NCBI RefSeq assembly: GCF_000019665.1
Contig: NC_010794.1
Span: 2,108,001 to 2,172,000 of the forward strand
DNA from: Methylacidiphilum infernorum V4
GTDB lineage: Bacteria; Verrucomicrobiota; Verrucomicrobiia; Methylacidiphilales; Methylacidiphilaceae
Reading direction: 5' to 3'
DNA length: 64,000 bases
The position numbers and the translations under genes are program-made. Shown one piece after another: positions 5,513 through 61,410 of this stretch (position 1 is its first letter; every line of letters begins with the position of its first letter). The notes beneath the pieces are model-generated. The model saw only the letters and a program-made list of their open reading frames with translations. It did no database searches and was not told the DNA's origin.

Positions 5513-8212
<2,700 letters not shown>

Positions 8213-8491
8213 AGACGATCCCGGCAAGCGCTAGAACTTTACCCTCAGCCGTTCCGCAAGACTTACCCACTGCTGCTCAAACAGGAACAAAGCTGACAGA
8301 CTTACTCGTCGAGGCCGGATGCGCCCGGCACGTGCAGGTTAGGCCAGAGCCTTCCTCTCCGCAGGCCTGCCTTCCGCCGGAACTGGCCGTAGAGCCGTTC
8401 AAGACGGCCAACACGAAGTAAAATGTACAAGAAAGATTGAAAAAGATTAAATAATTAATCAACTGTTCAAGCCCTGCGATGTTGTTTTTTT

Positions 8492-9244
8492 CTAGCTTTC
8501 CTGATCCGGGGGATAATCAACGGCTAATAGATACAGTCCCCAAGGGGGAGCAGCAGCAAAGGCCTCTATTCTTTTTTGATTTTCAAAAATTTTTTTAAGT
8601 TCTTGCCGGCTCAACCGTCCTAGTCCCACTTTCACTAACGCCCCGACCATGTTGCGGACCATGCGGTAAAGAAAACCGTCGGCTTTAACGTTAAAGAAAA
8701 CAAGACTGCCTTGCTCAAGGAAAAAACAATCCAACACCGTCCTTACCGGGTTTTTGACCGGCATTCCGGGGTTACTGACAAAAGCGGCAAAATTATGCTT
8801 GCCCAAGAAGAGCCGAGCGGCTTCATTCATCATTTCCACGTCCATGGCCCGGGGTATATGCCAGGCCCTGCCGAGATAAAAAGGATCCATGACCGGGTCG
8901 TTCCAGAGAAGATACTGGTAAGTCTTGGAAACCGCATCGAACCGAGCGCTGAACTCCCTGGGGACAATCCGGGCATCCCAAACCCGGACCGTGTCGGGCA
9001 AATGATAATTGAGGGCTCGCTTGAGTACTTCGGGTTCTAACTTTCTTGGGGCGGCAAAGGAAGCCACTTGTCCCTTGGCATGGACACCCGCGTCGGTCCG
9101 CCCGGCCCCTTCAACGGGAATCGGCTCTTCCCATATTTTGGCAACCGCTTCCTCAAGGGCGCGCTGGACGGTAGGCAGCTCTCCCTGTCTTTGCCAACCA
9201 TGGAAACCGCTGCCGCAATAAGAAAGAGTAAGCTTGTAGCCCAC
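8492..9244 (-). CDS. truA: tRNA pseudouridine(38-40) synthase TruA
   Basis: Isomerises uridines 38-40 in the anticodon arm of many tRNAs. It shows the family start YKLTLSYCGSGFHGWQRQ and the catalytic motif GAGRTDAGVHA with the nucleophilic Asp at about residue 51, plus RMVRNMVGALVKVG in the C-terminal half. I choose the GTG at 9242-9244, which gives the normal N-terminus (GYKLTL...). An upstream TTG at 9257-9259 overlaps the stop of the preceding PagL-like gene as TTGA and would add five residues. The gene follows the PagL-like gene closely, so the two are likely co-transcribed. It converges on katG. Confidence 0.94.
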   Translation of the reverse strand: MGYKLTLSYCGSGFHGWQRQGELPTVQRALEEAVAKIWEEPIPVEGAGRTDAGVHAKGQVASFAAPRKLEPEVLKRALNYHLPDTVRVWDARIVPREFSARFDAVSKTYQYLLWNDPVMDPFYLGRAWHIPRAMDVEMMNEAARLFLGKHNFAAFVSNPGMPVKNPVRTVLDCFFLEQGSLVFFNVKADGFLYRMVRNMVGALVKVGLGRLSRQELKKIFENQKRIEAFAAAPPWGLYLLAVDYPPDQES

Positions 9245-9255
9245 AACAGCTAAGT

Positions 9256-9936
9256 TCAATGAGGCCGACCCAGTAGATAAGAAAACCCGATCAATCCTCC
9301 CAATTCATTCACTCCAATATTCCTACTGGCCATGTCCGCATTAGACATGTGGTGAAACAAAAGCTCGAAGTTAAACGACCAATGGCTGTCCAACATGTAG
9401 CGGCAACCCGCGCCAAGTTGAGGGGTAAACTCTATGGCCTGCCCCACCATCGATTGGGTTTTAACCGTATAGGCATCGGTAAAGACAAACCCCAGTCCTC
9501 CCTCGATAAAGGGAATAAAGCGGCTGTCCGGCTGAACGAAGTTGTACCTGATCATAACTTGCGGTCCTACGACGGTGCTTCCAAAGCCCTTAATGATGGC
9601 ACTGGCATAAAGAGCAACAAGCAACTCTAGATTGCCCCGCAGGATTCCCCCTTTATCCGGGGTCGTCAACATCCACCCCCAGTAAGTCATGGTAGGAATT
9701 TCATCAAAAGTATACCTCCCGTTTCCCGAACCCATCGAAAAAAGACCGCCCGCCATGAACATAATTTCGTTGGCCCCTTCCTTAAAAAGGGCGACCTCGG
9801 GAATTTCCTCGGTTTTAAGGGATGAAGGGGATTGCTCGGTTTGCGCACTGTAGGCAGACTCCGCTCCAGGATTAGCCCTTGCAAAGGCGGGCCACAGGAT
9901 CGCCAAGCTCAAAAGAAAACAAAACACAAAACGCAT
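9256..9936 (-). CDS. PagL-like lipid A 3-O-deacylase (acyloxyacyl hydrolase), outer membrane
   Basis: A 226-residue protein with a clear signal peptide (MRFVFCFLLSLAILWPAFARA) and alternating amphipathic strands of a small outer-membrane beta-barrel. The C-terminal FELLFHHMSNADMASRN then GVNELGGL matches the PagL active site: the His and Ser of HxSN, with the Glu 15 residues on (one more than in Pseudomonas PagL). PagL enzymes remove the 3-position acyl chain of lipid A. If active, it would remodel the outer leaflet, which could matter for acid tolerance. It ends in ATTGAAC, overlapping a possible truA start. Barrel proteins of similar shape exist, so the specific activity is a family inference. 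Confidence 0.75.
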   Translation of the reverse strand: MRFVFCFLLSLAILWPAFARANPGAESAYSAQTEQSPSSLKTEEIPEVALFKEGANEIMFMAGGLFSMGSGNGRYTFDEIPTMTYWGWMLTTPDKGGILRGNLELLVALYASAIIKGFGSTVVGPQVMIRYNFVQPDSRFIPFIEGGLGFVFTDAYTVKTQSMVGQAIEFTPQLGAGCRYMLDSHWSFNFELLFHHMSNADMASRNIGVNELGGLIGFSYLLGRPH

Positions 9937-9957
9937 TTTTTTTCTCTTATCAAGATG

Positions 9958-10398
9958 TTAAACAGCACTTCCCGCTCTTTTTCCCTTCAAGGGAAGAACA
10001 TCCAAGTAAGACTGCAGTATAACCGCTGCGGCATAGCTGTCGATCTTTTTTTTCTTTTCCCTGCCATTGCAACCGCATTGAGTCAATAACCGGTCTGCCA
10101 ACTTCGTCGTCAGCCTCTCGTCATGAAATTCCACAGGTATAGGGATCCACTGCTTAAGCTTCAACACGAACTGCCTTACTTTTTCGGCGGCAGGCCCATA
10201 GGAACCATCCATGTTCCTTGGCAACCCCACGATAAGAAGGCTCACCTCGTAGTTTACGATGATCTCCTTGAGCTTTCCAATAAACTTCACGTAGGGTTCT
10301 GCAGGCAACGGATCGAGAGGAATGGCAATCGAAAAGCTCTCGTCGTTGACCGCAAGCCCAATATGCTTATTACCGTAATCCAAGGACAAAATAGCCAT
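9958..10398 (-). CDS. ruvX: YqgF/RuvX-family nuclease (putative pre-16S rRNA processing / Holliday junction resolvase)
   Basis: A 146-residue RNase H-fold protein. It opens AILSLDYGNKHIGLAV, carrying the first catalytic Asp, has LLIVGLPRNMDGS, then EFHDERLTTKLAD with conserved Glu/Asp, and IDSYAAAVILQSYLD with the last Asp. YqgF proteins take part in 5'-end maturation of 16S rRNA in E. coli and resemble RuvC. The ATG at 10396-10398 places the conserved first strand at the N-terminus; longer starts are not family-like. It sits 21 bp upstream of the PagL-like gene and 34 bp downstream of trpA on the same strand, so a leftward run trpA-ruvX-PagL-truA is likely. Confidence 0.92.
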   Translation of the reverse strand: MAILSLDYGNKHIGLAVNDESFSIAIPLDPLPAEPYVKFIGKLKEIIVNYEVSLLIVGLPRNMDGSYGPAAEKVRQFVLKLKQWIPIPVEFHDERLTTKLADRLLTQCGCNGREKKKKIDSYAAAVILQSYLDVLPLKGKRAGSAV

Positions 10399-10432
10399 CG
10401 CTTCAGTTTCGCTGGTTAGACTTTTTTTGCTC

Positions 10433-49437: not shown

Positions 49438-49881
49438 ATGAAAATCATTAGCCCAATACCCGAAAAGAAGGCACGAATTGAAATCATTCCTCTCATCGAC
49501 ATCATGGTATTCCTGATGGCCTGCATGATGATGGTAAACCTCGAGATGATCCGAATGCGTGGGCTTAAGCTCAACTTGCCTACCGCACAGACGGCAACCC
49601 CTGAAAACAAGTCTGATTTCCTAACGCTTTCGATCAAGGAGAGCGGAGCGGTCTTTCTCGAGAAGGAGGAAATCGACCGCAATGCCCTCGTCGATGAGCT
49701 TAAACGACGGAAAGAAAAGAATCCCAACCTGCGCATTTATGTCCAGGCCGACATGAACGCGATGCACGGAGATGTCGTGAAGGTCCTCGACAAGGTGCGC
49801 GCGGCGGGGATCCAAAAGATCGGTTTCCAGGTAAAGGAGGAAGCTCCTCCATCCGAGAAGTCCCTTTCTCCTAAACCTTAA
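49438..49881 (+). CDS. exbD: ExbD/TolR-type biopolymer transport protein
   Basis: A proton-channel subunit that powers TonB. The 147-residue protein has a short cytoplasmic N-terminus, one membrane helix with the essential Asp (IPLIDIMVFLMACMMM), and the periplasmic domain (FLTLSIKESGAVFLEKEEI, YVQADMNAMHGDVVKVLDKV, GIQKIGFQV). ATG 49438 gives the standard short N-terminus; longer frames add about 40 residues overlapping the allantoinase end. It starts the exbD-tonB-exbB set and is followed by tonB after 38 bp. A diverged copy of its periplasmic part is fused to exbB downstream. Confidence 0.93.
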   Translation: MKIISPIPEKKARIEIIPLIDIMVFLMACMMMVNLEMIRMRGLKLNLPTAQTATPENKSDFLTLSIKESGAVFLEKEEIDRNALVDELKRRKEKNPNLRIYVQADMNAMHGDVVKVLDKVRAAGIQKIGFQVKEEAPPSEKSLSPKP

Positions 49882-49919
49882 AAGGAGAAAAAAGTGAAGA
49901 ACAATGGAAGGATAGCTTA

Positions 49920-50648
49920 ATGACCTCAAGAATCCAAGTTAGACATTTAGGAGAACTCATGCCACGCTTGGGCCGACCATGGCTCGTTCCTTTGGGACTT
50001 CGTAACTATCCAATCGATAGCTATTTATGGCATAGGCGATGGGCCATGTTTTGCGTTGTCCTTTTCTTTGGATTTCTCCTATTTCTTGGCGCGGGTAACA
50101 AAGAACAGTCTATTGTGGATCTCCTTCTTCGGGGTGCTGTAATCCCGGTGTCCTCCCCTCCCCAGGAAGAAGAAGTCAATAGCCCTCCGATAGAAGTGGA
50201 ATTTACTCCCCCACCCCCTCCTGAACCGCATCCGGAGTTTATTCAACCGAAAGAACAGCCTCCCCCACAACCCGTTCCTCTTCCAGAAAAGAAACCCGAG
50301 CCAAGGCCAGAAATGCCAAGAACGACATCTATTCAACCGATAAAGAAGACAGCCCTGAGTACTCCGCCACGACAGGTTACTCGCTATGCAGCCGCTGCTC
50401 CTCGAGTTGGTGATGCCAACACGCCTAAACCCCCCTACCCTTATGAGTGTGCTATCCGCAGATACCAAGGAACTGTCGAATTGTCTCTTACCGTTGTCCA
50501 AGGGCGTATTGTTAGCGTTGATATTGTTCGATCATCGGGCTTTGCCATGCTCGATTCCAATGCCCGCCAATGGATCTTGCATCGTTGGAGGCTCCCTTCC
50601 ACCCTGACGGGAACCTACACCATCCCTATTATTTACAGGCTTGAATAG
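49920..50648 (+). CDS. tonB: TonB energy transducer
   Basis: Spans the periplasm and passes proton-motive energy to receptors. The 242-residue protein has a cytoplasmic N-terminus of about 38 residues, a membrane anchor (WAMFCVVLFFGFLLFLGAG), a Pro/Glu-rich periplasmic rod (PPPPPEPHPEF, EKKPEPRPEMPR), and the C-terminal TonB domain (NTPKPPYPYECAIRRYQGTV ... SSGFAMLDSNARQWILHRWR). The long N-terminal cytoplasmic part (LGRPWLVPLGLRNYPID) is unusual and recurs as a fragment before the MFS gene. A ribosome site GGAAGGA precedes ATG 49920. It probably serves the two receptors flanking this locus. Confidence 0.92.
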   Translation: MTSRIQVRHLGELMPRLGRPWLVPLGLRNYPIDSYLWHRRWAMFCVVLFFGFLLFLGAGNKEQSIVDLLLRGAVIPVSSPPQEEEVNSPPIEVEFTPPPPPEPHPEFIQPKEQPPPQPVPLPEKKPEPRPEMPRTTSIQPIKKTALSTPPRQVTRYAAAAPRVGDANTPKPPYPYECAIRRYQGTVELSLTVVQGRIVSVDIVRSSGFAMLDSNARQWILHRWRLPSTLTGTYTIPIIYRLE

Positions 50649-50694: not shown

Positions 50695-51579
50695 ATGAGC
50701 TTTGCTAATATTATTCTAAATACCTTCTTCCGAGGAGGCCCGATCATGTGGCCCCTGCTTCTTACCGCTATCATCGCCTTTGCTACGGTGTTTGAACGGA
50801 TCTTCTGGTGGTCAATGGTCCAACTCCGACGAAAGGGAAGTAGACTTTCTGAAGTCTATAACTTTCTTAAAAGCGGCCAGATCGAGGAAGCGGTAAAACT
50901 TGCCCAAGCATCTAAGGATCCTGTCATGAAAATGATCTGGTGGGGACTTACCCACCATGAAACATCCCTGCAGAATGCCTTGCAAGTAGCGGCAGGCTTT
51001 GAGCTAAAGGAAGCAGGACGCGGACTTGCCATTCTCGATACAACCGTCACTTTAGGACCTCTATTGGGACTCTTGGGAACCGTTACGGGCATCATGAATG
51101 CCTTTCACTTCGTCGGTAACGAGGAGCTTGCAGCAGTCAAGGTAAGCGGGGGTATCGCCGAAGCCCTTATCGCCACCGCAACGGGACTAGCCCTTGCCAT
51201 CTTTGCTCTGATCCCCTTTAACTACTTCAGCCGAAAGGTGGCTAATCTCCAGTTTGATCTCGAGACGGCAGCAAGCAACGTGGAGCTTCTCCTGCAAAGC
51301 CGAAACCGCGGTACGGCTGAAACGAAGAGTGACATTCTTACCTTGTCGATAAAAGACAACGGGAAAGTCTTGCTCGAGAAGACGGAGATCGATAGGAACG
51401 AGCTTGTCGATGTGCTAAAACGAAGAAAAGAGCAGGAACCTAATTTGCATCTTTATGTTCAGGCCGACGCGAACGCCAATCAAGGGGATGTCGCAAACAT
51501 CCTCGATAAGGTATGGGCGGCAGGGATACAAAAAATCGGTTTCCAATTCAAAGAGGAAGCTTCACCGCTCGGTCGTTAA
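50695..51579 (+). CDS. exbB: ExbB fused to the periplasmic domain of a truncated ExbD
   Basis: Residues 1 to about 200 are a normal MotA/TolQ/ExbB proton channel: three membrane segments (IMWPLLLTAIIAFATVF; LDTTVTLGPLLGLLGTVTG; IAEALIATATGLALAIFALI) and the helix SNVELLLQSRN. Then the frame runs directly into an ExbD periplasmic domain (KSDILTLSIKDNGKVLLEK ... YVQADANANQGDVANILDKV ... IQKIGFQF) that resembles the ExbD encoded at 49438. The ExbD membrane helix is missing, so this domain would be left in the cytoplasm. ATG 50695 has AAGGAG at a proper distance; a GTG six bases earlier does not. It looks like an in-frame deletion joining exbB and exbD. Confidence 0.9.
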   Translation: MSFANIILNTFFRGGPIMWPLLLTAIIAFATVFERIFWWSMVQLRRKGSRLSEVYNFLKSGQIEEAVKLAQASKDPVMKMIWWGLTHHETSLQNALQVAAGFELKEAGRGLAILDTTVTLGPLLGLLGTVTGIMNAFHFVGNEELAAVKVSGGIAEALIATATGLALAIFALIPFNYFSRKVANLQFDLETAASNVELLLQSRNRGTAETKSDILTLSIKDNGKVLLEKTEIDRNELVDVLKRRKEQEPNLHLYVQADANANQGDVANILDKVWAAGIQKIGFQFKEEASPLGR

Positions 51580-51628
51580 ATTTTTCCTGCCCAAAGCTCC
51601 CTTCCTACAAGCTGAAAGGAAAAAGGAA

Positions 51629-51808
51629 ATGGAAGAAAAGGGGAAGAATAACCTTCTGATTATTAGAACCCTAGTTGGACATCTAAGCAAGCTTGTCCAT
51701 CCCTCAAGCCGACCATCGCTTCTTCCATTAGATATTGCCGATCATTCAATTAATCGAGGGCTGGACTACCGGTACCGGCGATGGGCTTTTCTTTATGTCT
51801 TAAAGGGG
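51629..51808 (+). pseudogene. Truncated second tonB (N-terminal fragment)
   Basis: The frame reads VGHLSKLVHPSSRPSLLPLD and then YRYRRWAFLYVL, aligning with the N-terminus of the intact TonB (VRHLGELMPRLGRPWLVPLG, then LWHRRWAMFCVV). The membrane helix, rod and C-terminal domain are gone. The fragment follows the exbD part of the exbB fusion at about the same distance as tonB follows exbD in the intact copy. It is in frame with the MFS gene. Confidence 0.6.
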
Positions 51809-53179
51809 ATAAGATCCGACCGGCTCCCTCAAGCTTCGAACCCAAAGGAAAGGTTAAGTTCAAGAAGTTATCAAGACCGGGTTTCAATTGATTCCTCAAC
51901 CCCTTTTCGATTACATCAACTTTATCCCTTTGTGGTCGCCTTCTTCGCTTGGACATTCGCAGTTTATGATTTTTTGCTCTTTGGTCTTCTCCTCCCCGTG
52001 CTGGCCAAGGAATTCAACTGGACGGCAACGCAAAGCGTTTCCATTGCGTTTTGGGTTACAATTGCAAGCTTTTTCTGCTCTCTTCTTGTCGGACCTATCG
52101 CTGATGGTTTTGGACGACGCAATGCCCTTGTTCTTACGGTGGGTGGAGCAGCCCTAAGCTCGGGGTTAACCGCTTTTACGACTGGCCCTCTTTCCCTTAT
52201 ACTCGCCCGATCCCTCTCCGGCCTTGGCTACTCGGAACAGGCGGTCCAAGCGGCATATCTTGCCGAGCTCGAAGCCGTCGAAAAACGTGGGCGTTTCTAT
52301 GGCTTTATCCAGGGAGGATGGCCATTCGGACAACTCCTGGCCACCGGTGCAGCAGGTTTGCTTCTTCCCTGGGTGGGTTGGCGCGGCGTTTTTCTCATCG
52401 CCAGCTTCCCCGCCGTAATCATATTGTTAGCTCGGCTCTGGCTCCCGGAGAGCCCTTACTTTCTTCGACTAAGGCGTTTTCGTCAACTTTACCGCCGTAA
52501 CCCTGAAGTGGCCGTTCGATATGCCTTAAAGAACCGCATGGATGTGGAAAGCTCACGGCAGTTCCTGCTTACCCAACTCCTAGCTCCAGAGCTCCGTGGG
52601 CAGTTTCTCTTTCTACTCCTCGCCTTCTTTTTTAACTGGTTTGCCGGAGAAATCTTCACGGTCTTGATTACCACCCTTCTTACACAGTTCAAGGGATTGA
52701 GCTACGGGGAGTCGCTCTGGGTTTTTGGCTTGGGAAGCGCCGTTGCCTACGTTGGATATGTTACCCACGGACTGTTAGGTCATATCTTGGGTCGACGAGA
52801 GACTGTGGCGATGGCTTGGACGGCCTCGGCGGTCGCCTACGCAGCCCTACTCTTTCTTGCTAAAGGATTTTGGACCGTGACCCTGCTCTATGCCCTTGCC
52901 GATTTCTGGCGAGCGGGAGCCTACGGTGCACTCTTCCCTTACATCGCCGAGTCTTTTCCCACTCGTGTCCGGGCCAGTGCTACAACTTTCATTAACGCAA
53001 TTGGACCGCTGGGTGCAATTGTAAGTTCTTTGCTCTTCAGTATCGCTCTTGCTCACGGGATCAGTGGCATCTATGCTAGTTTTTGGATCGGGGTTCTTCC
53101 CACGCTTTTCTCCGGACTCCTTCTCTTATGTTGTCGTCGTGTGCCTCCCGGTATGGAGCTTGATAGGATCGGTCAGTAA
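51629..53179 (+). CDS. MFS transporter (metabolite:H+ symporter type) with a tonB-derived N-terminal extension
   Basis: From about residue 100 this is a 12-helix major facilitator: FVVAFFAWTFAVYDFLLFGL, the loop 2-3 motif GPIADGFGRRNAL, SLSGLGYSEQAVQAAYLAE, and LGHILGRRETVAM in the second half, as in the aromatic-acid/sialate:H+ symporter group. The first 100 residues are hydrophilic and contain the tonB fragment. ATG 51629 with a good ribosome site (GAAAGGAAAAAGG) is the only ordinary start; a GTG at 51932 would begin inside the first helix. So the gene may be expressed as a fusion. Location suggests uptake of a purine degradation compound; the substrate is unproven. Confidence 0.78.
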   Translation: MEEKGKNNLLIIRTLVGHLSKLVHPSSRPSLLPLDIADHSINRGLDYRYRRWAFLYVLKGIRSDRLPQASNPKERLSSRSYQDRVSIDSSTPFRLHQLYPFVVAFFAWTFAVYDFLLFGLLLPVLAKEFNWTATQSVSIAFWVTIASFFCSLLVGPIADGFGRRNALVLTVGGAALSSGLTAFTTGPLSLILARSLSGLGYSEQAVQAAYLAELEAVEKRGRFYGFIQGGWPFGQLLATGAAGLLLPWVGWRGVFLIASFPAVIILLARLWLPESPYFLRLRRFRQLYRRNPEVAVRYALKNRMDVESSRQFLLTQLLAPELRGQFLFLLLAFFFNWFAGEIFTVLITTLLTQFKGLSYGESLWVFGLGSAVAYVGYVTHGLLGHILGRRETVAMAWTASAVAYAALLFLAKGFWTVTLLYALADFWRAGAYGALFPYIAESFPTRVRASATTFINAIGPLGAIVSSLLFSIALAHGISGIYASFWIGVLPTLFSGLLLLCCRRVPPGMELDRIGQ

Positions 53180-58708: not shown

Positions 58709-58815
58709 AGTTGATGTATTGGGTATATAAGCAAACTTCATGCCACAAGGATGGACTGCATCGCTTGAACTTGGCACAGGTTCTGCTTTTTCACTTCTCC
58801 GGAGCCAAGTTCGAA
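58709..58815 (+). promoter_or_regulatory. Divergent promoter region between ade and receptor copy 2
   Basis: About 100 bp separates the two divergent starts. The right 70 bp are shared with the leader of receptor copy 1 (from 38332), so the two receptor genes probably carry the same proximal signals while the upstream parts differ. No defined operator recognised. Confidence 0.35.
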
Positions 58816-61410
58816 ATGAAGGTAAAGACCGGGCAAAGACAGTTACCTCTACCCACTGCCCAGTCCCTGTCTCTTTTCCCGTCAAGGACTCAACTCTTCT
58901 CCTTTCTTTTCTGGTGGCTTGTAGCAGCTTCAGCCTTAAATTCTTCCGAAACAGCCTCGTCTTTCCCGCAGGCTTCTTCAACTTCCGAGCCCTCAACGCC
59001 TTTATCCGATCCGCCAAGTACTCCAAACGACATATCCACTCCAGAACCTACTGCGGCCGGTTCGTCAGCTCCAGGAGGTCAACAGGGCAGCCTTCCCGGC
59101 ATGGTGGTCAGTACAACCGCTCCCGGCGAGTCGATGCTTCCGACGGCCACCCCCACCGAGTCTGGAGCCTACGGGCAGCCGATGAACGTGCTCGATATCC
59201 CCAGGCAACTCTTTCCCGTCAACCAGAAAATCTTGCAAACCGAGGGAGCCGGTACCCAGGGTTGGTTTGATCCCGTCAGTACCGCTTTTCTTTCCCCCGG
59301 TTCGACTGCTGCCGCAGGTAACAACCTTGTCTTTGCGCCCATGATTCGAGGCATGCCTCCTCTGGGCTATATTAACGGGATGCAAATGACAATGCAGGAC
59401 GCAGGTTGGTGGAACCTCCCGTGGAACTACAACATGGTTGAATCGATGGACGTGATCGAGGGACCGCCCAATGCCGTCCTTGGCGAGTTCCAGCCCAACG
59501 GCGGGGCCGTCAACTACATCACCAAGCAGCCTTACTTTGACCGGTTCCGCGGTTACGTATGGGATACAACCGGGATGTACGAAAATTACCTCTGGGGAGC
59601 TGACATCGGCGGACCGATCGACAAGGAAAAGAAGATCGCTTACCGATTCAGCTACATGGGAATGGAGAACGGTAGTTACTATCAATACCAGTATAACGAC
59701 CAGCAGAACTTCTACCTGGCCTTGAGCGCTCGGCCCTCCGACAATTACTCGGTTGATTTCTACTCCGATTTTGGTACCTACAACTTTAACATCCTCGATT
59801 TCATGAATCGGCCGACCAACGAGCTGATCAACAACGATCTATACCAGACCGGGGCTTTAGCTCCCTCGCAAGTAACATTCGGATTTCCCCCATTCAACAC
59901 CTATGCGGGGCCGCTTGTTCCCATTAGCCTGCGCTCGACTGCCATGAACCCGGCCAGCGGTGCCCAGGGGATGAGCGGCATGCTCCAGTTGGTTCAAAAC
60001 TTAATCGTCAATGACGATTTGCGGGTTCGAAACAACACTTTTGTTTTTTACATCCGTAGCTCGCTCATCGACTATGCACAATGGGAGGACATAGACATCA
60101 CTGGAGACTACGAGGTATTCAATCGGACCGAGGTTTTAGCGGCCCTCCACCCCGAAGAGGCTCTCTTTGAGCAGAACATCGATGCGGGGCTTGAGTTCGG
60201 ATTCCAACGCAACCTCGATTACGAAGCGGTTTCCTTCTTTGGGATTCAAAACGCCTGGAGCATCGTCAATCCGAACAATCCTACCCTAGCCAATCCTTAC
60301 CTTTGGAATGCCGAGCTATCGACTTCCTTTATGGCGGGCGTAGGCAATCCTCTCGCTTTCGGTGGGGGAGATTGGCCTATTCCTTCGGCTCCTCCCGGGT
60401 GGTATTTTGAACCCTTAAACGGTTATTCGCTTACCGAGGATTCGCAGTTTTGGGAAGTTGCCCCCTTCTACCAGCACAACATCCACTTCACCGACAAACT
60501 CATGCTCCTGGTGGGCGGTCGGGCGACAAACCTCTTCATCAGTGCCCAAACTCCTCCAGGCACGCCGGCTTTCCTTTCCACCAGTTACGACGCGGCCGTG
60601 CTCATGCCGATGGTCAACGTGAGCCCGGTCTATAAACCCTTCCCGTGGATGACCGCCTATTTCGACTTCAACTGGGGGTATACGAGTGCGGTGGGAGTCA
60701 TGGGGGGTTATACACCGATCTATGCTGGGGCCGAGTTCCGACTCGTCAACCAGCTCATCGAGGGAGGAATGAAGTTTAGCCTGCTCAAAGACAAGCTCTA
60801 CATCACCACGGCAGGTTTCCAACAGAACTTGTACATCCCCAACGTCGGGTTGCCCCCAGCTCCGGCTTACATCAAGGGCTTTGAACTTGCCCTCACCTAC
60901 CAGCCAACCAAGAACTTCTGGGCTCGCATCCAGTATCTTCTTGCCAATGGTACCGAGGACTGGTCAGGGCTTCCCATAGGCCCCTTCCAGTTCCAGACCT
61001 ATTCAACATCAACCGCATTGGCCCAAGGCCTTCCCCTCAACAACGCGACCAGTTATCCCCCAGGCAAGTATGCCTTTGTGGGTTGGCCCGATCAATCCTT
61101 GACCGCTATGGTTACCTACCAGACCAACATGGGCCTAGGGGTAACCCTTTCGGCACTCGTTTTGAGCAACCAGTATCTCGATTATTCTTACAACCTAGAA
61201 ATCCCCACCGAGTATGTCATCAATGGGCGCCTTTTTTACACGACATCCCAGTGGGATTTTGCTGTAAACATTTATAACCTGACAGATAACCGGCATTTGT
61301 GGTTTCCCTACGGCCCAGGAGTAACATTCGGCAGGGAAATGAATACCGAGCAGATCGTTGCTGGATTACCTTTTTGGATACAAGGCACGGTCGCCTACAG
61401 GTTTTAATTC
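58744..61410 (+). repeat. Direct repeat copy 2 (TonB-dependent receptor gene and its leader)
   Basis: Matches 38332-40995 in the same orientation over about 2.66 kb, with nearly identical blocks and short diverged blocks at corresponding positions. Distance between copies is about 20.4 kb start to start. Confidence 0.9.
58816..61407 (+). CDS. TonB-dependent outer-membrane receptor, copy 2
   Basis: An 863-residue paralogue of the receptor at 38404 with the same layout: signal (FSFLFWWLVAASA), Ser/Thr/Pro-rich stretch, MVVSTTAP, plug (EGPPNAVLGEFQPNGGAVNY) and a barrel ending in VAYRF. Differences cluster in a few segments: residues near 170-190 (LGYINGMQMTMQDAGWW), near 370-430 (NPASGAQGMSGMLQLVQN, RSSLIDYAQWED), near 485-525 and at the C-terminus. 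These are candidates for ligand-contacting loops. It starts a rightward run with HIU hydrolase (5 bp after its stop) and the NCS1 permease, which ties the receptor firmly to purine degradation. Confidence 0.88.
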   Translation: MKVKTGQRQLPLPTAQSLSLFPSRTQLFSFLFWWLVAASALNSSETASSFPQASSTSEPSTPLSDPPSTPNDISTPEPTAAGSSAPGGQQGSLPGMVVSTTAPGESMLPTATPTESGAYGQPMNVLDIPRQLFPVNQKILQTEGAGTQGWFDPVSTAFLSPGSTAAAGNNLVFAPMIRGMPPLGYINGMQMTMQDAGWWNLPWNYNMVESMDVIEGPPNAVLGEFQPNGGAVNYITKQPYFDRFRGYVWDTTGMYENYLWGADIGGPIDKEKKIAYRFSYMGMENGSYYQYQYNDQQNFYLALSARPSDNYSVDFYSDFGTYNFNILDFMNRPTNELINNDLYQTGALAPSQVTFGFPPFNTYAGPLVPISLRSTAMNPASGAQGMSGMLQLVQNLIVNDDLRVRNNTFVFYIRSSLIDYAQWEDIDITGDYEVFNRTEVLAALHPEEALFEQNIDAGLEFGFQRNLDYEAVSFFGIQNAWSIVNPNNPTLANPYLWNAELSTSFMAGVGNPLAFGGGDWPIPSAPPGWYFEPLNGYSLTEDSQFWEVAPFYQHNIHFTDKLMLLVGGRATNLFISAQTPPGTPAFLSTSYDAAVLMPMVNVSPVYKPFPWMTAYFDFNWGYTSAVGVMGGYTPIYAGAEFRLVNQLIEGGMKFSLLKDKLYITTAGFQQNLYIPNVGLPPAPAYIKGFELALTYQPTKNFWARIQYLLANGTEDWSGLPIGPFQFQTYSTSTALAQGLPLNNATSYPPGKYAFVGWPDQSLTAMVTYQTNMGLGVTLSALVLSNQYLDYSYNLEIPTEYVINGRLFYTTSQWDFAVNIYNLTDNRHLWFPYGPGVTFGREMNTEQIVAGLPFWIQGTVAYRF

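Follow-up and report, generated by a model that had tools for sequence, protein, structure and literature searches.

In Serratia marcescens, the periplasmic extension of ExbB is N-terminal. The C-terminus of ordinary ExbB lies inside the cell (PMC6778125); the protein has three membrane helices, and its short N-terminus is on the outer side. In Escherichia coli ExbD, residues 44-49 form the intermolecular strand of the dimer and Tyr112 lies at the centre of the dimer interface (PMC10771500), and L132 is required for binding of the TonB D-box (PMC10907165).

We analysed a window of 64,000 nucleotides from the chromosome of Methylacidiphilum infernorum V4 (NC_010794.1, positions 2,108,001 to 2,172,000); all features described below are on the + strand and are given in window coordinates. 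M. infernorum is a heat- and acid-loving methane eater, and at 50695-51579 its genome contains a single, stop-free open frame of 294 amino acids that comprises a complete ExbB and the folded domain of ExbD. Pfam places MotA_ExbB (PF01618) on residues 87-188 (E 6e-27; 94.3 bits, above the curated cut-off of 22.9) and ExbD (PF02472) on residues 198-286 (E 2e-11; about 44.6-44.7 bits with a cut-off of 25.4, the equivalent stretch of exbD scoring 55.4 bits). The ExbD match covers profile positions 38-126 of 128, and because it starts at position 38, the N-terminus and membrane helix of ExbD are absent from the fusion. The nearest ExbD to the tail is the full one encoded two genes upstream, at 49438; protein identity between them is 67% over 96 aa (E 7e-42), and the DNA of the tail is 73% identical to the upstream exbD over 245 nt without gaps, far above chance. 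An earlier note on this DNA had described an ExbB joined in frame to the periplasmic domain of an ExbD deprived of its helix, and the open frame, the Pfam matches and the protein and DNA alignments bear this out with two corrections: the ExbB part is complete as claimed but ends at about residue 205 rather than 200, and the tail lacks not only the membrane helix but also the strand that follows it, GLKLNL in full ExbD.

By Pfam and ortholog alignment, the ExbB part (residues 1-205) occupies 50695..51309. A junction or short linker at 51310..51327 retains neither the exbB stop codon nor any remnant of the exbD helix, and the appended ExbD folded domain (residues 209-294), delimited by Pfam, alignment and predicted fold, lies at 51319..51579. 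Separate production of the tail from an internal start was considered and rejected: no candidate start is preceded by a plausible ribosome-binding site. With a probability of about 0.58, we read the frame as a fusion made by duplication, in which the ExbB half is normal and the tail is a tolerated, folded passenger in the cytoplasm.

Immediately upstream of the fusion, Pfam identifies intact exbD and tonB genes, which together with exbB form an operon for the Ton motor of the inner membrane. The exbD gene (49438..49881, 147 aa) encodes a membrane helix with a PLIDIM motif, the GLKLNL strand and the folded domain, and it is the apparent donor of the copied domain; the single N-terminal membrane helix of ExbD, with its essential aspartate, is missing from the fusion and present in this separate protein. 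The tonB gene (49920..50648, 242 aa) encodes a post-helix PP-IEVEFT-PP stretch that by eye resembles the ExbD-binding D-box (motif definition from PMC10907165). Since exbD and tonB are intact, the motor misses no part, and since the genome has seven complete ExbD genes, along with seven ExbB genes, the fused domain is a surplus copy and not a displaced sole ExbD.

The surrounding region, 41619-63238, is a purine-catabolism cluster that encodes a xanthine dehydrogenase-type protein, amidohydrolases, adenine deaminase, a cytosine/purine permease and a TonB-receptor-like protein, at a G+C content of about 50-53% compared with 45.5% genome-wide. The product of 58711-61407 looks like a TonB-dependent receptor by eye, and Pfam gives no match to it at E 0.001. 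Judged by this gene neighbourhood, the operon may power the import of a purine or of a purine breakdown product.

Unfused ExbB orthologs in Methylacidimicrobium are 84-87% identical to residues 1-205 of the fusion. Four Methylacidimicrobium genomes, LP2A and three others, have the order exbD-tonB-exbB-MFS with a normal exbB (in LP2A, exbD at 6708-7232, tonB at 7229-7954, exbB at 8001 to 8675 and MFS at 9003-10424), and in none of the four does the gap between exbB and MFS hold a copy of exbD; an intact exbB-exbD pair at this point in relatives, envisaged by the earlier note, was thus not found. Among the matches listed from 387 Verrucomicrobiota genomes there is no ExbB-ExbD fusion besides that of the window, in a search that weak fusions could escape; a plasmid search gave no match to the fusion and a literature search no mention of it. 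Judged from these comparisons, the fusion is lineage-specific. Long frames in three genomes (G071, G219 and G270) were examined as further fusions and proved to be N-terminal run-ins or periplasmic extensions with no ExbD tail, and a frame in G122 is an ordinary 213-residue ExbB, likewise with no ExbD tail. Close orthologs of the window exbB, exbD and MFS gene are absent from four other Methylacidiphilum genomes, and the Ton/MFS part, common to Methylacidimicrobium but not to these four, was either gained by transfer or lost elsewhere.

Two side observations concern the relatives. At L038:8676-9003, and at the equivalent site in L034, L035 and L040, a short proline-rich, signal-peptide-like frame lies between exbB and MFS; it bears a weak likeness to the proline-rich linker of TonB and could be what is left of an older tonB. 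In STC_89, a MAG of the Methylacidiphilaceae in which exbD is not adjacent to tonB, a single contig contains two identical stretches of about 127 bp that correspond to the end of exbB (L039:1-127 and about L039:4654-4780), one of them at the contig end, ahead of an outer-membrane-protein-like gene; the repeat is either an assembly-graph repeat or a second copy of exbB.

Homology to the upstream operon does not stop at the end of the fusion frame. Beyond its stop codon, 51594..51786 duplicates the spacer between exbD and tonB together with the start of tonB, and it aligns with 49858-50044 at a DNA score of 85, compared with a best score of 36.5 in 2000 dinucleotide-preserving shuffles; at the protein level, the copied 5' region of tonB aligns with a score of 63, compared with at most 52 in 3000 shuffles. 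Between exbB and the MFS core, the sequence is copied collinearly from the 3' part of exbD, the spacer and the 5' end of tonB, and its source is a stretch of about 0.45 kb at 49601..50044. The copied spacer and tonB end now precede, and provide the N-terminus of, the MFS transporter frame (51629..53179), which starts with the ATG at 51629 within the copied segment, preceded by the purine-rich AAAGGAAAAAGGAA, and with which the Methylacidimicrobium orthologs align from residue 60 or later only. About 60 N-terminal residues of this frame are TonB-derived, which makes it, too, an in-frame chimera produced by that event.

As comparison with relatives shows, a single duplicated segment has given rise to two chimeric frames, ExbB::ExbD and TonB-N-terminus::MFS. 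The segment, which begins midway through exbD and reaches into the start of tonB, was copied to the site directly after exbB, where the first junction brought exbB into frame with the folded domain of ExbD and the second brought the start of tonB into frame with the MFS gene. The simplest route would be a tandem duplication of exbD'-tonB-exbB after which, presumably in that order, the second tonB and the second exbB were mostly lost; direct insertion of 0.45 kb would be equally compatible.

The copied domain differs from exbD by a dN of 0.19 and a dS of 1.9. From substitutions alone, the neutral probability that the copied frame would remain free of stops is 0.12, so the open frame alone is weak evidence and selection tests are needed. 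In a maximum likelihood codon model, omega is 0.094 on the copy branch, which may include time as a separate exbD gene and represents the one genome that carries the fusion, and 0.033 on all other branches; an omega of 1 for the copy branch is rejected at a cost of 8.1 lnL units when the copy is sister to the window exbD and of 4.3 when it is placed outside. Where five orthologs share the same base, the copy differs at 15% of first, 11% of second and 39% of third positions (p = 0.003), and it is altered at 6 of the 26 positions invariant in nine orthologs. These comparisons indicate that the copied domain is under purifying selection, roughly three times weaker than that on exbD. The constraint may partly predate the fusion, because a duplication before the Methylacidimicrobium split cannot be told apart from one after it (the tree likelihoods are equal and synonymous sites are near saturation).

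As one origin of the frame, the earlier note had offered a scar left by an in-frame deletion that joined neighbouring exbB and exbD genes. The gene orders argue against it: the relatives have exbD-tonB-exbB-MFS with nothing exbD-like after exbB, and an intact exbD still lies upstream here. A deletion may have followed the duplication as a second step, although none is required. There is also a longer version of this account, in which an older exbD2-tonB2 pair stood after exbB and the exbB stop, the spacer and the exbD2 start were later lost; it concerns the origin only and can be combined with either a passive or a functional tail. A long existence as a normal gene would account for the low omega, and the copy, which is no nearer to the window exbD than to those of Methylacidimicrobium, with both trees equally likely, may predate the split from that genus. 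However, a second exbD at this place is present in no relative, the junction holds no trace of an exbD2 helix or spacer, and the account needs one event more than direct duplication does. We regard it as possible but doubtful.

An AlphaFold2 model of the tail has the ExbD fold with a mean pLDDT of 80. In a Foldseek search with this model, ExbD ranks first (8pek, E 6e-7; 6e-7 to 1e-5 overall), and the matches to ExbD structures (PDB 8pek, 8p9r and 8vgc) have TM scores of about 0.73-0.74 over 72 residues. Several positions on which ExbD depends are nevertheless absent or changed. The missing GLKLNL aligns to E. coli ExbD residues 44-49, and its place in the fusion is taken, as judged from sequence, by the C-terminal helix of ExbB. 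The equivalent of Tyr112 is H in all ten orthologs aligned and Q in the copy, and an arginine of the last helix, invariant in the same ten orthologs, is W in the copy. As read from these alignments, the tail would lack the features through which ExbD dimerises, namely the post-helix strand and the Tyr112 position. At the position equivalent to L132 the copy has F, which is still hydrophobic.

The fusion has the same three hydrophobic stretches as an ordinary ExbB, and beyond residue 198 the Kyte-Doolittle maximum is 0.55, i.e., there is no further segment. Residues 1-12 carry no charge, whereas the cytoplasmic loop and the tail contain many K and R residues, giving the positive-inside pattern of an ordinary ExbB. 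Three helices are also visible in the model of the full-length fusion, which is of low confidence (mean pLDDT 56) and was used for the order of elements only. On the basis of hydropathy and charge prediction, the tail should therefore be cytoplasmic, in line with the earlier expectation that it would lie on the wrong side of the membrane unless the topology had changed.

In the reading that we favour, of a normal ExbB with a tolerated passenger, the ExbB half would give the usual pentamer together with ExbD and TonB, both encoded separately, at full length and with intact sequences; conservation of residues 1-205 suggests that this part would still assemble around the ExbD helices and conduct protons. 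Because the C-terminus of ExbB is cytoplasmic, the extra ExbD domains would hang below the motor as folded passengers, where they could reach neither the periplasmic linker of TonB nor the cell wall, and they would be without the helix and the strand by which ExbD is positioned and paired. For a domain that is simply carried along, an omega of 0.09 on its branch is low. The residual constraint would most easily be explained by selection for a tail that remains folded and does no harm to an important membrane complex, perhaps combined with a small contribution to assembly.

The earlier suggestion of a new regulatory extension gains from the purifying selection on the tail and suffers from the loss of residues central to known ExbD function. 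In its general form, five tails per pentamer would pair or bind a partner under the motor and tune its assembly or activity, the candidate partners being the tail of a further ExbB, the N-terminus of ExbD and that of TonB, which is long and cytoplasmic. The constraint on the copy, the intact predicted fold and the hydrophobic residue retained at the L132 position are all consistent with this proposal, and the copied piece approximates the minimal fragment that binds the TonB D-box in crystals (PMC10907165). The D-box, however, lies across the membrane from the tail, the arrangement is found in no relative, and the intermolecular strand is missing, with H replaced by Q at the Tyr112 position (PMC10771500) and the invariant arginine by W. 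A functional tail seems to us unlikely. Its most specific form, in which duplication shifted a periplasmic motor domain to the cytoplasmic face of its own motor and selection kept the domain there as a tethered clamp on the ExbB pentamer or as its regulator, we consider quite improbable.

A sequencing or assembly artefact, in which the true genome would have a stop codon or an independent gene where the two parts meet, is very improbable: a single genome shows the fusion, but that genome (CP000975) is a single closed chromosome of 2,287,145 bp (PMC2474590), assembly collapse is unlikely and indeed excluded by the 27% DNA divergence between the copies, the tail has no credible translation start of its own, and with the exbD helix absent, one base error could not mask a normal gene. 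A periplasmic tail acting as a third ExbD head is barely conceivable, as we found no point that supports it, and the ordinary ExbB stretches, with none after residue 198, and the K/R-rich loop and tail speak against such a topology.

If the tail is active, the fusion offers a natural test of what an ExbD head is capable of when removed from TonB and the cell wall, and an instance of a motor component that switched membrane sides. If it is inert, it provides a clean example of one small duplication that creates two in-frame chimeras, ExbB::ExbD and TonB::MFS, with the ancestral arrangement kept in a sister genus. In either case it carries a warning for annotation, namely that a match to ExbD at this locus does not denote a usable ExbD.

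Among known systems, the ExbB of Methylacidimicrobium (PF01618) resembles the fusion in its first 205 residues (84-87% identical), in its operon order exbD-tonB-exbB-MFS and in its three membrane segments, but beyond this point it has only a short tail of about 15-20 residues, not conserved, where the fusion has the ExbD domain. That domain is like the periplasmic domain of ExbD (PF02472; PDB 8pek, 8p9r and 8vgc) in predicted fold and in its 67% identity to the neighbouring ExbD; unlike ExbD, it is without the membrane helix, the proton-path aspartate and the intermolecular strand, its Tyr112 equivalent is changed and its expected location is cytoplasmic. The ExbB of Serratia marcescens (PMC9008036) is also an ExbB with an added segment, but there the extension is long and periplasmic, whereas that of the fusion is a C-terminal, presumably cytoplasmic copy of a domain of its partner. 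Fusions in the Tol-Pal system (TolB-Pal, PorE; PMC12204202) likewise unite parts of one envelope machine in one protein; they join parts of the same compartment, whereas the M. infernorum fusion would put a domain on the side of the membrane opposite to its normal one.
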